Shown here: positions 3,543 through 19,246 of the stretch, in pieces
Numbering within the stretch: the first letter of the stretch is position 1
Layout: every line of letters starts with the position of its first letter
Source: a virus
Length of the DNA: 50,212 nucleotides
Virus record (IMG/VR): IMGVR_UViG_3300027413_000011
Coordinates: 1 to 50,212 of that record
Strand: one strand, 5' to 3'
Program-made: the position numbers and the translations under genes
Notes under the pieces: generated by a model
The model's input: the letters and a program-made list of their open reading frames with translations, nothing else
The model's database searches: none
What the model was told of the DNA's origin: nothing

Positions 3543-4292
3543 TTAATATTTTTGTAATAAACCATCTAAGTAAGCATAAACTTCTCCCATATTTAAAAAT
3601 GGATCAGAATTATGTCTATCTAGTACATTACTCATTACTTCTTTTTCTTTATTTATATCCTCTAAATATGAAGCTATCTCATCTATAGCAATCTTCATTT
3701 GATCTATATCTACTCCTTCTTTAATATTATTTTTAGCTTCGTAAGCTGTTTTAACACTTTCTAGAGTTGGTAGAGCTTCACCTTGTTTTCTAGTGGAGTA
3801 TCCAGGTGCATTTTCTTTTAATAGCTTACCTTCTGTTATTTTAAATGTACCTTTAATGTCATTCCCATCTTTTTTAAAATTAACATTATATGCATCAACT
3901 TTTACTGTGGTAGGAAGTGATTGAAGAGCAACTTTAAATTCTTCTTCATCAATAAGGGATTCATCATTTTCAAACTTTACAGTTTCTGTTTCACCAACTT
4001 CTTTGTTAAAATCATCACCACCTTCAAGATATATTTTAAATGCTTTCTTAAGGTAGTTTATACCTTTGTCTTCTTTTAATAGCTTACCTTCAGCTAATTT
4101 ATCCATTAAAGCCTTAACAGATTGGAGATACTTGTCATCACCCCCAAAATCAGAATCAATTACATCTTCAAAAGCCTCTCCTCTTTTAGCAGCATCTTTT
4201 ACTTTCTTTTTTTGTTCATCAGAAAGTTTTACAAATGTTTCTTTTAATAGCCTACCTTCAGCTAAATATTTTCTTAAATTAAAATTATTCAT
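3543..4292 (-). CDS. Tagged protein with three EG(R/K)LLKE motifs, possible packaged polyprotein
   Basis: A 249-residue protein starting 'MNNFNLRKYLAEGRLLKE'. The motif recurs as 'LAEGKLLKED' at residues 66-75 and 'ITEGKLLKEN' at 152-161, dividing the protein into about three modules of 60-90 residues. In T4-like phages the prohead protease gp21 cuts after (L/I)-x-E and removes an N-terminal capsid-targeting peptide. The L-A-E and I-T-E here fit that rule. Module contents are mixed charged helices with no recognised domain. It is one base from the 118-residue tagged gene and 14 bases from the coiled-coil gene. Packaging and processing are hypotheses. Confidence 0.8.
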   Translation of the reverse strand: MNNFNLRKYLAEGRLLKETFVKLSDEQKKKVKDAAKRGEAFEDVIDSDFGGDDKYLQSVKALMDKLAEGKLLKEDKGINYLKKAFKIYLEGGDDFNKEVGETETVKFENDESLIDEEEFKVALQSLPTTVKVDAYNVNFKKDGNDIKGTFKITEGKLLKENAPGYSTRKQGEALPTLESVKTAYEAKNNIKEGVDIDQMKIAIDEIASYLEDINKEKEVMSNVLDRHNSDPFLNMGEVYAYLDGLLQKY

Positions 4293-4657: not shown

Positions 4658-5668
4658 TTATATTATATCTTGTATTGTGGCAAAGTCTTTTGCTGTTAAA
4701 ACATCAAATTCATAATCTTCAAAATCACCACCATCATAACGTATAGTTGATACTGCTCCAGCAATATCATTTCTTAATTCTTTTGAATTAGCCTTCAAAG
4801 CTTTAACTGCCTTAACATAATCTTCAAATACACCCATAGCTTCATCGGATACTTTTTCAAAATCAGCATCAACACCACCAGCATCAATTATACCATCATT
4901 TCCTACTTCAACTTCTCCTGCTGCCCATTCTGACCAGTAGTCTCTTATATTATTATCTAAAATATCCTGAACATCTAAAAACTCATCCTCAAATTCTTCT
5001 ACATCTTGCCCTTGTAACATTGCAAGAGCTTCAATTGCTTCTTCTCTAGTTAAAGCACCTTTATCAATATGAATTTGTAAAGCTTTGATTTGTAAATCTA
5101 GTGGATCAGCTCCATCATAGAATCTATCAAGGTATTTATCATATATGTCTATAAAATCTTCAACTGGCATTTTAGGAACACTAGTGATGTTATCCTTTAT
5201 ATAATCTATTTCTTCATCTGAAGCATTAGACATAAGGGTATTATTTGGATCTACCATTACAGTAGTATCTACCATTATTTCTTCTTTTAATAGCTTACCT
5301 TCAGATAAACCTACTACTTTCATAGCTTCTTTTTCTTGTTCAGGTGTTATTAACTCTTGTTTAACATGAATTTTAAGACCATCTACTACATGGTCAAGAG
5401 CACCTCCACCAGATGTATCGATTTGTGCTTGTTTTACCCATTTATCGTCTAAATCCATATAATCTTGGATAGACACCCTTTTAGGAGCAGTTAAAATATT
5501 ATTTTTAACCCATTCTGCATCATCTTTATTAAACCCAAAATCGTCAGGTGATGTAAGTACATCTTTAATATAGTCATTACCCCCAAACATAATAATAGGG
5601 TCAACCATTATTTGTTTTTTTAATAGCCTACCTTCAGCTAAATATTTTCTTAAATCAAAATTGTCCAT
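4658..5668 (-). CDS. Tagged protein with tandem internal duplication
   Basis: A 336-residue acidic protein starting 'MDNFDLRKYLAEGRLLKKQ'. At residues 121-130 a second copy 'LSEGKLLKEE' appears, followed as in the first copy by 'IMVD'. The segments after each tag align: 'KNNILTAPKRVSIQDYMDLD' against 'KDNITSVPKMPVEDFIDIYD', then 'GLKIHVKQELITPEQEKEAM' against 'ALQIHIDKGALTREEAIEAL'. About 110 residues are therefore duplicated in tandem. A third, different acidic C-terminal part covers about 225-336. Candidate cleavage sites are L-A-E (10-12) and L-S-E (121-123). The start overlaps the cupin gene by 19 bases, and a promoter lies inside that gene. Confidence 0.8.
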   Translation of the reverse strand: MDNFDLRKYLAEGRLLKKQIMVDPIIMFGGNDYIKDVLTSPDDFGFNKDDAEWVKNNILTAPKRVSIQDYMDLDDKWVKQAQIDTSGGGALDHVVDGLKIHVKQELITPEQEKEAMKVVGLSEGKLLKEEIMVDTTVMVDPNNTLMSNASDEEIDYIKDNITSVPKMPVEDFIDIYDKYLDRFYDGADPLDLQIKALQIHIDKGALTREEAIEALAMLQGQDVEEFEDEFLDVQDILDNNIRDYWSEWAAGEVEVGNDGIIDAGGVDADFEKVSDEAMGVFEDYVKAVKALKANSKELRNDIAGAVSTIRYDGGDFEDYEFDVLTAKDFATIQDII

Positions 5669-15651: not shown

Positions 15652-16182
15652 TTATAAACCTAATTTTTTTAATTGTTGTATTGTGTTTGATGTTGATGTA
15701 TGTAGTATACCAATTCCTCCTTGCGAATCCCACTCTCTTATAGTATCTACTCTATCATCTATTAATATTGCTCCTTCTTTGGAGTAATCTTGTTTGTTTT
15801 TAGCTGCTGCTAATATTAATTTTGTGCCTGGTATTTTATTTTTTACCCATAATCTTTTTCCTAACCTTGAACTATTTTCAGATGATGGAGCTGATAGAAG
15901 GGAAAATAAATTTGGTTTAATATAGTCAAATAATTCTTTACCATCTGACATCCAGGGAATACCAACCCAAAATCCTACACCTTCATCGTTTATTAATTTC
16001 CAAAATGCTTTTATACCATACTTATCTCTATATTCATTTGTAGTTAACCCATCTGAGTATTGTTCGAATCTAGCTTCAAAATCTGCTAATACACCATCCA
16101 TATCACAGTATAAGGTGTATTTTTGAGGTTCTATTTCCTCTACTATTTTATTATATATTTCTTTAAGTTTTATCACATCCAC
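15652..16182 (-). CDS. HAD-family 5'(3')-deoxyribonucleotidase-like phosphatase
   Basis: A 176-residue HAD phosphatase. Motif I is 'LYCDMDGVLADFE' (about residues 24-36) with the nucleophile and acid Asp residues. Motif IV 'GAILIDDRVDTIREW' lies near residue 138. The cap and substrate regions ('EGVGFWVGIPWMSDG', 'LLSAPSSENSSRLGK') resemble NT5C-type deoxyribonucleotidases and their phage relatives, which dephosphorylate nucleoside monophosphates. It would act in nucleotide-pool control. The ATG lies inside the 3' end of the 765-residue gene (20-base overlap), and a class I promoter is embedded in that overlap region. The gene may therefore be expressed earlier than the long gene upstream. Confidence 0.85.
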   Translation of the reverse strand: MDVIKLKEIYNKIVEEIEPQKYTLYCDMDGVLADFEARFEQYSDGLTTNEYRDKYGIKAFWKLINDEGVGFWVGIPWMSDGKELFDYIKPNLFSLLSAPSSENSSRLGKRLWVKNKIPGTKLILAAAKNKQDYSKEGAILIDDRVDTIREWDSQGGIGILHTSTSNTIQQLKKLGL

Positions 16183-18460
16183 AATTTGTCGTGAATATAC
16201 GAACTTCTTTTTGCTCCTCCAAGGATTTTACGGGAGGTTTTATATCTTCTATGTTGAAGTCTTCCATTAACTCTCTAGCATAAGCTTTTAAACCAAATGG
16301 GTCTCCATTTTCTGGTTCATTGTCATAGTCACATTTATGACATATAAATAAATCATCCCCACCATCTACTATGTTCCAGCTCCAACCGCAGTTATCGCAT
16401 TCTATTTTTTCACCTACTATTTTTTCATTTAAACTAGTAACTTCTTCTCCATCTAGGCTATCTGTCCAGTTTCTAAATGTCATGTTACCTTTTGTATATG
16501 CTTCTCTTTCAATATCATTTAGATTATCATCTTCCATTGTATTAGTAGTGGAAATGTTTTCTAATCTATCTTCTATGTTTTGAATATGGTGAACCATTTC
16601 ATGTGCAAATGAACGTACAATATCTTTTGGATGTCTACCTTCAGTGTATAAAACTACTGTCATGTCACTAGGACTGTAATATGCTGTTTTGCCTAAAAAT
16701 TGAGATGCATTTTCTTGATCCCCATGTTTAAATATGACTTTAGGTAAAGGTAAAATGTTCATACCTTTTTTTATCATATGTTTAGTTAAATCTTTTATTT
16801 GTTGTTTATAATCGATTTTACTAGAGTATGTAGCATTTTCATTTAATGGAGTTAGTGGCTCCGTTTTATTTGATGTTGGTTTCGGCGTTGTATTAGTTGA
16901 TTTACCGTTAAGTATGTCTACTATCTTATCAACCTCACCTTGGGTTAAGTTTGCAGGTAGCATATTTCTAAAACCATCTAGGTCTGTTTTTAAAAGTTTT
17001 CTTGCTTCAGTCCCACTTACACTACCTCCTGTTGATACCTCTAAAGGAATAACATTATTGCTATAGTTTTTAACATATTTAGATCTTTGTTCAACATCAG
17101 CTTTATCACCATCATTTCCATCTCTTGACCCTATAAAGACATAAGTTTTATCATCTGTATGGTTTTTAAGGTAATCTTTGAGGTATTTAAAAGGGCTTGC
17201 TTCTATAATTTCAACGTTACTTATAGGAATAAGATTTGCATCATCATAAATTTCCCATATTTCTTTTGATTGTTTTTGAGTTATTCCATCCCTAACACCA
17301 CCACCTACTATAATCTTAAGGTTGTTTATTTCAGGTGCTAGTTTTAAGCCTTGTAAAATTACTTCTAAATGACCTTTTGTTGGTGGTTTAAAACCACCCC
17401 CAAATAAAGCTACTACTTCTTTATATTCTTCATTTAATATACCATCAACTAAAAATTGAGTTAGTTCATTGATTTTTTTTTGACCTATATGAGCCATTGC
17501 CTTTGATGTAGCATCATCTATTGATAAAAATGATTTACCTACGTTTTTAATTGTAGATGAAATATCACTATAAACCCTATCTTTTTCAGTATCTTTTTTT
17601 ACTTTTTTAGACATATAAGATTTATAAACTTCTTCCATACCATTTTTTCTACCTACTTTTTTTAAAGGCATTACCTCATTATTTTTTTCAAAGTATTTTT
17701 GGTATAATTTTTCCATTGCTTCTCTATCATCTTCTTCAAGTTTTAATCCTAATTCTTGTATTTTAAAATTAAAATCAGCTTGTTGTTCTTTAGATAAATC
17801 AGCGGGTTTAGAAACCATTTGAGACGACTCATAATATTCTGGGTCTGAATTTATAACATCTCCAATATATTTTTCTAAAGCCTTTCCTCCTTGTTGTGCT
17901 GCTTTATTAAAAGCATCTATTTTAGAGTTATCCGTTCCTGGTTTTGATGTATTATCTATTATGATAAAATTATCACCAAACATTTTTTGGTAATTTTCTA
18001 TGTGAGGGTCATTATATGAATCAGCCCATGTTTTTAATATAACATATGGTGGTAAACTATCTTCACCTTCTTTACTTGCTCTAGCAAAGTTTTGTTCAAA
18101 TGCTACACTTGGATGAGCATATACCATAATCATTAAAACATCATAACCTGCATCTTGAAGTTCTTTTACTTTTGTAGGATTATTAGCTGTAGTGTCCCAT
18201 ATAATATTTGGTTTATCTTCACTTTTAGCTAAGCTATCTACTTCTTTATTTATTTTTGAAGCTGCTGCTGCTAATGATAATCTTTGTTCAGGGTCTGGGT
18301 TTCTAGCATATTGGTCAGGGTTTAATACTACCCAACCTTTAGATTCAGCTGCTTTTTTGAATTTATCAGTTACAAAAGTTTTACCAACTCCTGCACCACC
18401 AGCCATGATTATAGCTTTAGGTTTTTCTTCTTGTTCTCTTAAATTGACTAACCCCATCAT
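16163..18460 (-). CDS. Fusion: P-loop kinase, cytidylyltransferase-like domain, HExxH metallopeptidase, zinc ribbon
   Basis: 765 residues in four parts. (1) A zeta-toxin-like P-loop kinase with Walker A 'GGAGVGKT' (21-28) and 'WDTTANNP' (89-96). (2) A cytidylyltransferase-superfamily domain with 'GGGFKPPTKGHLEV' (354-367, the HxGH-type site as T-K-G-H) and 'VSGTEARKLL' (481-490), as in NMN adenylyltransferases. (3) A zincin peptidase with 'FAHEMVHHIQ' (618-627) and a downstream Glu (651 or 653) as possible third ligand. (4) A ribbon 'CDNCGWSW ... CHKC' (688-710). The tripeptide L-N-E occurs at 342-344, 539-541 and 677-679, at each region boundary. A class II motif precedes the gene, as for structural genes. 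A packaged, cleaved enzyme set is my hypothesis; substrates are unknown. Confidence 0.88.
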   Translation of the reverse strand: MMGLVNLREQEEKPKAIIMAGGAGVGKTFVTDKFKKAAESKGWVVLNPDQYARNPDPEQRLSLAAAASKINKEVDSLAKSEDKPNIIWDTTANNPTKVKELQDAGYDVLMIMVYAHPSVAFEQNFARASKEGEDSLPPYVILKTWADSYNDPHIENYQKMFGDNFIIIDNTSKPGTDNSKIDAFNKAAQQGGKALEKYIGDVINSDPEYYESSQMVSKPADLSKEQQADFNFKIQELGLKLEEDDREAMEKLYQKYFEKNNEVMPLKKVGRKNGMEEVYKSYMSKKVKKDTEKDRVYSDISSTIKNVGKSFLSIDDATSKAMAHIGQKKINELTQFLVDGILNEEYKEVVALFGGGFKPPTKGHLEVILQGLKLAPEINNLKIIVGGGVRDGITQKQSKEIWEIYDDANLIPISNVEIIEASPFKYLKDYLKNHTDDKTYVFIGSRDGNDGDKADVEQRSKYVKNYSNNVIPLEVSTGGSVSGTEARKLLKTDLDGFRNMLPANLTQGEVDKIVDILNGKSTNTTPKPTSNKTEPLTPLNENATYSSKIDYKQQIKDLTKHMIKKGMNILPLPKVIFKHGDQENASQFLGKTAYYSPSDMTVVLYTEGRHPKDIVRSFAHEMVHHIQNIEDRLENISTTNTMEDDNLNDIEREAYTKGNMTFRNWTDSLDGEEVTSLNEKIVGEKIECDNCGWSWNIVDGGDDLFICHKCDYDNEPENGDPFGLKAYARELMEDFNIEDIKPPVKSLEEQKEVRIFTTNCGCDKT
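16192..16223 (-). promoter_or_regulatory. Intragenic class I promoter (CTTG-N20-TATATTCA)
   Basis: CTTGG starts at 16223 and TATATTCA occupies 16199-16192 on the minus strand, 20 bases apart with GTTCG before the second box. It lies in the last codons of the 765-residue gene, nine bases before the nucleotidase ATG. Confidence 0.7.
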
Positions 18461-18464
18461 ATGG

Positions 18465-18473
18465 TATAAATAT
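18465..18473 (-). promoter_or_regulatory. Class II motif ATATTTATA, candidate late promoter
   Basis: TAATATTTATACC on the minus strand, four bases before the ATG of the 765-residue fusion gene. Its TAA also forms the stop codon of the upstream nuclease gene. It puts the fusion gene in the same expression class as tail genes. Confidence 0.55.
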
Positions 18474-19246
18474 TAGTCTTTTTTCTTCACTTGCGTTCTG
18501 AATTCAGTAAATATTGGTGAGTGTTTTGGGTTTTCTAGGTCAAATAGTCTTTTGACTGTATTGAATATGTCTATGTTTTCGTCTTGTGTACGTTTTGATT
18601 CATACATTTCCCAACCTTTCCCTTGAATTTTACCTTCTTTAGGTCCACGTTTGGATGATTTTAACCATAGAACTCCTAGTCTGTCTATTTTCTTACCAAA
18701 ACACTCTTCATAACATTTGGCGTAAACAGCGGTCTGCAAATCGTAAGTCGTTTGTAAGTGGTTTGATGTTTTGAAATCTATAATCCATAGTTCATCGTCT
18801 ATTTCACATACTAAATCGCAGGTGCCTGCTACTTTAAGTTCATCTGAAAATAGATGTACTTCAGCTTCTAGTAGTGTTGGTTTATATGTTTCCCAAAAAT
18901 CAACAAATTTTAGAAACATTTGCCATACTGTTGGATCATACATTGGGTTACCTGCTGATGATAGAAAATTTAATTCTTTACCGTTTAGGTAATCTTCACA
19001 CATTTCGTGTACTTGAGTACCTTCATCTGCTGCTTTTCTAACAATATAGTCAGCACTGTATCCTACTTTTTTAAGCCAGTCTTGGAAAAATTTACCTTTT
19101 GGGTAGCAGCTTAAAACGTATGTGATTGATGGGTAGTATTCACCATTACGTCTGTAATATCTGGAATCTGGTAAGGTTATTTGTTTAGCATCTTCAGATA
19201 TTTCAAGTATCCTATTGTATTTTTTCTTAATGTTTCTTTTACTCAT
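18473..19246 (-). CDS. Cas4/RecB-like PD-(D/E)xK exonuclease
   Basis: A 257-residue nuclease of the RecB/Cas4-like PD-(D/E)xK group. The motifs are in order: 'GTQVHEMCEDYL' (His80), 'LLEAEVHLF' (Glu near 127), 'GTCDLVCEI' (Asp144), 'LWIIDFKTS' (Asp157, Lys159) and 'YDLQTAVYA' (Gln171, Tyr175). There is no Cys cluster typical of iron-sulphur Cas4. The four-base overlap with the primase gene upstream places it in the replication operon driven by the promoter at 20175-20205. A role in DNA recombination or host-DNA degradation is likely. Which end or strand it attacks is unknown. Confidence 0.85.
   Translation of the reverse strand: MSKRNIKKKYNRILEISEDAKQITLPDSRYYRRNGEYYPSITYVLSCYPKGKFFQDWLKKVGYSADYIVRKAADEGTQVHEMCEDYLNGKELNFLSSAGNPMYDPTVWQMFLKFVDFWETYKPTLLEAEVHLFSDELKVAGTCDLVCEIDDELWIIDFKTSNHLQTTYDLQTAVYAKCYEECFGKKIDRLGVLWLKSSKRGPKEGKIQGKGWEMYESKRTQDENIDIFNTVKRLFDLENPKHSPIFTEFRTQVKKKD

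Follow-up and report, generated by a model that had tools for sequence, protein, structure and literature searches.

A single open reading frame in a T4-like marine phage joins a kinase, a nucleotidyltransferase, a peptidase and a zinc ribbon, and the question it raises is whether this chain acts whole or is divided into separate proteins. The stretch of DNA analysed here (the window, 50,212 nucleotides) is a 50-kb IMG/VR record, a fragment. An earlier note, made from the letters alone, had proposed a polyprotein that is packaged into heads, cut by the prohead protease and delivered with the DNA. That proposal is supported by the comparison of module boundaries, by the S77 protease and Gp23-type capsid protein of the relatives and by a cytidylyltransferase reported from cyanophage virions (PMC10665884). 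The best explanation, and a likely one, is in our view that this T4-like phage packages the polyprotein into its head as cargo and that the prohead protease cuts it there; cleavage, packaging and injection of the window protein are what we infer from these comparisons.

The gene and its domains

As the earlier note had it, the reading frame is open from an ATG over positions 16163-18460 of the minus strand and encodes 765 residues. The gene order primase, exonuclease, polyprotein, 5' nucleotidase is identical in a 160-kb relative (G001), and Flavobacterium phage immuto, the closest cultivated relative of the window, has the same order with one additional gene between exonuclease and polyprotein. 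Besides the primase and exonuclease, the window carries baseplate-wedge matches and SegE-type genes. The host is probably a flavobacterium, because relatives of the peptidase module sit in Flavobacteriales and Winogradskyella genome bins; others are in unclassified bacterial bins. A PHROGs search with the 765-residue frame gave almost no matches, PDB sequence searches gave matches at chance level only, and PADLOC gave no defence-family match. The features of the locus are as follows.

16163..18460, minus: putative cargo polyprotein reading frame, 765 aa (open frame with ATG; gene order kept in G001)
18463..18474, minus: AATATTTATACC, candidate late-promoter-type motif in front of the ATG (pattern copies in the window)
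18434..18460, minus: N-terminal leader MMGLVNLRE, residues 1-9, ending L-R-E and resembling a capsid-targeting sequence (LRE at 7-9; relatives)
17831..18433, minus: zeta-toxin-type P-loop kinase, about residues 10-210 (Pfam Zeta_toxin, Foldseek)
17429..17479, minus: internal leader INELTQFLVDGILNE, within residues 328-344, ending L-N-E, with predicted cleavage after 344 (N-termini of relatives)
16910..17419, minus: NMNAT/cytidylyltransferase-type nucleotidyltransferase, about residues 348-517 (CTP_transf_like, cyt_tran_rel, motifs, Foldseek)
16838..16846, minus: L-N-E 539-541, predicted to be cut, ahead of the peptidase (context comparison; coil, pLDDT <50)
16424..16837, minus: HExxH peptidase module, residues 542-679 (structure model and alignment)
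16424..16432, minus: L-N-E 677-679, predicted to be cut, at the end of the peptidase (context comparison)
16325..16399, minus: zinc-ribbon module, about residues 688-712 (CxxC...CxxC)
15652..16182, minus: HAD/5'(3')-deoxyribonucleotidase gene, the next cargo candidate (PHROG 2643, E 1e-23)

The fusion of four regions described earlier was confirmed. By its P-loop kinase domain, the N-terminal domain is a member of the zeta toxin family: the Walker A motif GGAGVGKT occupies residues 21-28, Pfam Zeta_toxin matches residues 10-132 above its cut-off (E 9e-15), and Foldseek matches zeta toxin (1gvn) and PezT (2p5t) with probability 1.00. For the nucleotidyltransferase, Pfam CTP_transf_like matches residues 352-446 with an E value of 6e-4, slightly under the curated cut-off, accompanied by a cyt_tran_rel match and a Foldseek match to phosphopantetheine adenylyltransferase. 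The motifs GGFKPPTxGH and SGTxAR are conserved in its alignment (26 rows), and the window domain contains the NMNAT/NadR signature (T/H)xGH and SxTxxR; the NCBIfam NMN/NaMN and PPAT models matched it weakly, far under their cut-offs. Its substrates are probably host NAD or nucleotide pools.

In the peptidase module, HEMVH lies at residues 620-624, and both histidines, the glutamate and one downstream glutamate are invariant over 36 aligned rows. The module was modelled as an autonomous fold (pLDDT 81.5, pTM 0.79) with both edges at low confidence; its nearest solved folds, IrrE and selecase, are weak matches, as is a Pfam PipA/HExxH match at 606-646. The zinc ribbon (C..C...C..C), which is followed by a short tail, is common to many polyproteins with varying downstream neighbours; it had no confident library match and no match among phage records. 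Long AAA+ ATPase matches returned by Foldseek for the full model were disregarded, their source being the low-confidence multidomain model.

The motif AATATTTATACC ends two bases from the start codon. Four sites in the window match its pattern exactly, each of them on the coding strand and directly upstream of a gene, and in relatives the core ATATTTATA stands ahead of portal, sheath and tube genes, in agreement with the earlier claim that the upstream motif matches that of structural genes. AATATTTATACC presumably acts as a late promoter. Another motif, TTCGTATATT, precedes the minus-strand genes that start at 1321, 2707, 20169 and 44325, where it may indicate a separate class of transcription.

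Tripeptides at the module boundaries

The tripeptide LNE occurs at residues 342-344, 539-541 and 677-679 of the window protein, and a leader-like N-terminus closes with LRE (residues 7-9), which the earlier note had missed. Structure prediction, one of the checks proposed in that note, placed all three LNE copies outside the confidently modelled domains, in low-confidence stretches of the model: residues 341-345 form a helix end with pLDDT <50, and 521-548 and 671-765 are coil. The linkers contain many charged residues. Three LNE would be expected by chance in this composition with p ~0.003; because five other tripeptides also occur three times each in the frame and a shuffled copy gives ~4.7 such tripeptides, the bare count is no evidence and was rejected as such. 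The wider pattern [LIV]xE is also present inside domains (98, 401, 418) and in a helical linker (234, 241, 330), and therefore the motif alone does not decide where a chain would be cut.

The evidence that the positions matter comes from relatives, found on viral contigs, that reach up to 1,325 residues and contain extra modules, among them cupredoxin (Pfam E 2.5e-15 in L011), ParB-like (identified by eye from sequence), HAD nucleotidase and basic DUF-like modules. Whole modules are inserted, lost or swapped at [LIV]-x-E, and the positions that LNE occupies in the window protein are module breakpoints in the relatives. Among 74 polyproteins, 64 different segment orders were counted, a number inflated by incomplete contigs and by within-domain copies of the motif. 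At alignment starts (498) 51% of the breakpoints fell on [LIV]xE and at alignment ends (666) 49%, compared with 14% of random positions (maximum 18% in 300 random draws), and the peaks were sharp and in exact register.

[LIV]xE precedes the peptidase module in 64 of 66 distinct contexts with 23 different neighbours (background 28%) and follows it in 66 of 67 distinct contexts with 17 different neighbours (background 20%). Since common descent links these contexts, they cannot be counted as independent, and the neighbour numbers give the more conservative measure. Far fewer matches were obtained in the same windows when the third residue was D, K or Q instead of E. The tripeptides are thus conserved at boundaries while the neighbours change completely, which is the pattern that the earlier note had set as a check. 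At the boundaries E occupies P1 and one of L, I and V occupies P3, whereas P2 is variable and 29 codon triplets were used in 60 contexts. Variable P2 and codons next to retained P3 and P1 place the constraint on the protein; this ruled out that the junctions are marked by a DNA recombination tag, and it points to selection acting on the protein.

The kinase is a separate gene in many relatives, and in L008-L010 its end overlaps the start of the next gene, so that gene fusion is evident in this family from the sequences. L010 and L012 have the HAD/5'(3')-deoxyribonucleotidase joined to the C-terminus of the polyprotein, with a VxE site in front of it. In a further chain, at 65782-66972 of G001 (L019:5782-6969), a basic part is found together with a second stretch of metallopeptidase type, HEHTH, and with the IDYDSIF module behind LNE; modules therefore move between different polyproteins. 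A plastocyanin/azurin-type copper-binding module inside a phage polyprotein, framed by [IV]xE, was observed in varied neighbourhoods (L011/L133, L134, L135).

Leaders, protease and known head cargo

The sequence of INELTQFLVDGILNE in the window protein corresponds to the N-terminus of a separate NMNAT-polyprotein gene in relatives, where the nucleotidyltransferase comes straight after a short leader, for example MNELTKFLVDNILNE or MNSLVKSLIQPLLE. The first 10-15 residues of relatives form a leader with [LIV]xE as its last three residues; this ending was found in 87 of 92 distinct N-terminal nucleotidyltransferase leaders, and the other five have no leader. Polyproteins that start directly at the nucleotidyltransferase are L052, L041, L037, L130 and L135. 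At the place of the kinase leader of the window protein, relatives have MINLVNLKE, MIKLVDLLLE and MIGLVQLLRE. The leaders of the relatives resemble the capsid-targeting sequences of T4, and by this analogy a targeting role is putative.

Genes for an S77 prohead protease and for a Gp23-type capsid protein are present in both G001 and immuto; the capsid gene was not found in the 50-kb window, a fragment, and the protease was seen only in the relatives. Read from sequence, the propeptide of the capsid protein seems to finish with LVVE (residue 61) in G001 and with IVSE (residue 59) in immuto. Within G001, an N-terminal [LIV]xE is present in 17 of 30 head-cluster genes and 40 of 128 other genes (p 0.012), an excess that lends modest support. 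Cyanophage cytidylyltransferases (P-SSM7, S-RIM14, S-CREM2) have MK[KN]FS-type leaders ending in [LI]xE, and that of S-CREM2, gp154 (N-terminus MKNFSSFLTE|AD), was detected in purified virions by mass spectrometry with 3 unique peptides, a detection that its authors caution could be carry-over (PMC10665884). Pelagibacter phage HTVC008M has the same order of kinase and cytidyltransferase with a nucleotidase nearby, and its cytidyltransferase leader is without the motif. No virion proteome of immuto was found in the literature.

These features recall several known systems. In T4, gp21 cleaves after L/I-x-E and the internal proteins have leaders of 10-19 residues, with processing determined at residues 8 and 10; the T4 Alt protein is an enzymatic cargo that is packaged and injected (PMC9026906). 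The window family shares short N-terminal [LI]xE leaders, in the relatives the S77 protease, and putative enzymatic cargo with the T4 internal proteins and Alt (PMC9026906). It differs in that V is also accepted at P3, and in that each T4 cargo protein has a gene of its own and is trimmed only at its ends, whereas here many unrelated enzymes per chain are shuffled at the sites. A mixture of unrelated enzymes with HExxH is also typical of polyvalent proteins, which are delivered (Iyer, Burroughs, Aravind 2017); a zeta-type kinase is reported in some of them, and zincin peptidases are often present (PMC5512222). For polyvalent proteins, however, processing by the embedded zincin has been proposed, whereas in the window family a prohead-protease motif at the boundaries defines exchangeable modules. 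S-CREM2 gp154 is similar in being an NMNAT-type enzyme with an [LIV]xE leader that was detected in virions, but it is a one-enzyme protein from a different phage family, and a polyprotein is not reported (PMC10665884). In jumbo phage SPN3US, internal head (ejection) proteins are cut by the prohead protease with multiple propeptide cleavages; these cleavages trim propeptides, and modular enzyme cassettes are not described in the available part of that report (PMC10052503).

Weighing the explanations

The main rival is a self-processing polyvalent protein, in which the HExxH module itself would cut at [LIV]xE, before packaging or after injection; it earns this place because the module is almost always present. 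It is intact, its active site is invariant in the alignment, and it is carried by 93 of 94 complete nucleotidyltransferase polyproteins, a figure biased upwards because many relatives were collected with the HExxH module as query. Processing of this kind has also been suggested for polyvalent proteins that contain a zincin (Iyer et al. 2017, PMC5512222). The motif, however, also occurs where no such module is available: it ends the leaders of cyanophage cytidylyltransferases that lack HExxH and is repeated in neighbouring proteins of G001 (64338-65780) that lack this module. It is found in addition at the apparent end of the capsid propeptide and equals the known specificity of T4 gp21. We regard self-processing as unlikely.

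A chain that is never cut would instead consist of fused metabolic enzymes made during infection, with the motif as a permissive linker or a relic of gene fusion. The overlapping genes of L008-L010 and the charged-rich linkers fit such an origin, yet P3 and P1 persist over 23 and 17 neighbours while the linkers vary, and control residues at P1 are not similarly enriched. Moreover, no pathway obviously unites the enzymes, and even so dissimilar a module as a cupredoxin is swapped at the same type of site, so that an uncleaved intracellular protein is quite improbable. The last alternative accepts the virion location and disputes injection, the fragments remaining in the head as remnants of core or scaffold. 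Neighbouring genes do resemble head-core proteins with similar leaders, but the conserved catalytic residues of nucleotidyltransferase and peptidase argue for enzymatic roles in the cell, and we give this reading very little credence.

If the preferred reading, cleavage of packaged cargo by the prohead protease, is correct, the polyprotein would be expressed late and its short N-terminal leader would direct the chain into the prohead core. There, the S77 (gp21-type) protease would cut after [LIV]-x-E, at residues 9, 344, 541 and 679, to free the zeta-type kinase, the NMNAT-type nucleotidyltransferase, the small HExxH peptidase and a peptide with the zinc ribbon, and these products would be stored alongside the DNA and enter the host together with it. 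The gene thus described probably works as an exchangeable package of head-carried proteins injected with the DNA; because each module ends at one short site, modules could be gained, lost and reordered with processing kept. On balance, we favour the broader view that flavobacterial T4-like phages retain a core of nucleotidyltransferase and peptidase to which changing effectors, framed by prohead-protease sites, are added, so that head maturation would free a customised injected cocktail.

No description of a modular head-cargo polyprotein was found in the open-access literature searched, outside which most subscription papers lie; for phage polyproteins cut by prohead proteases, it yielded only the neighbouring concepts of T4 gp21, polyvalent proteins, S-CREM2 and SPN3US. 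If true, the proposal would mean that the maturation protease sets the exchange points for cargo modules, which would explain the quick change of injected proteins in T4-like phages, and modules framed by [LIV]xE would provide a sequence rule for finding unknown injected effectors in metagenomic phages. The cultivated phage immuto offers a direct test system.

Two further observations were made. The 'cytitidyltransferase' of Stenotrophomonas phage DLP_6 (KU682439, L124:2809-4977) is 722 aa long, its C-terminal part looks ParB-like and its linkers contain [LI]xE; it may be a polyprotein of this kind from another group of phages. LAEGKLLKE-like stretches form a second separator type, at the N-termini of several window genes and repeated inside those proteins (3543-4292, three copies, and 4658-5668, minus strand; also in L103), which suggests further cut-up head proteins.
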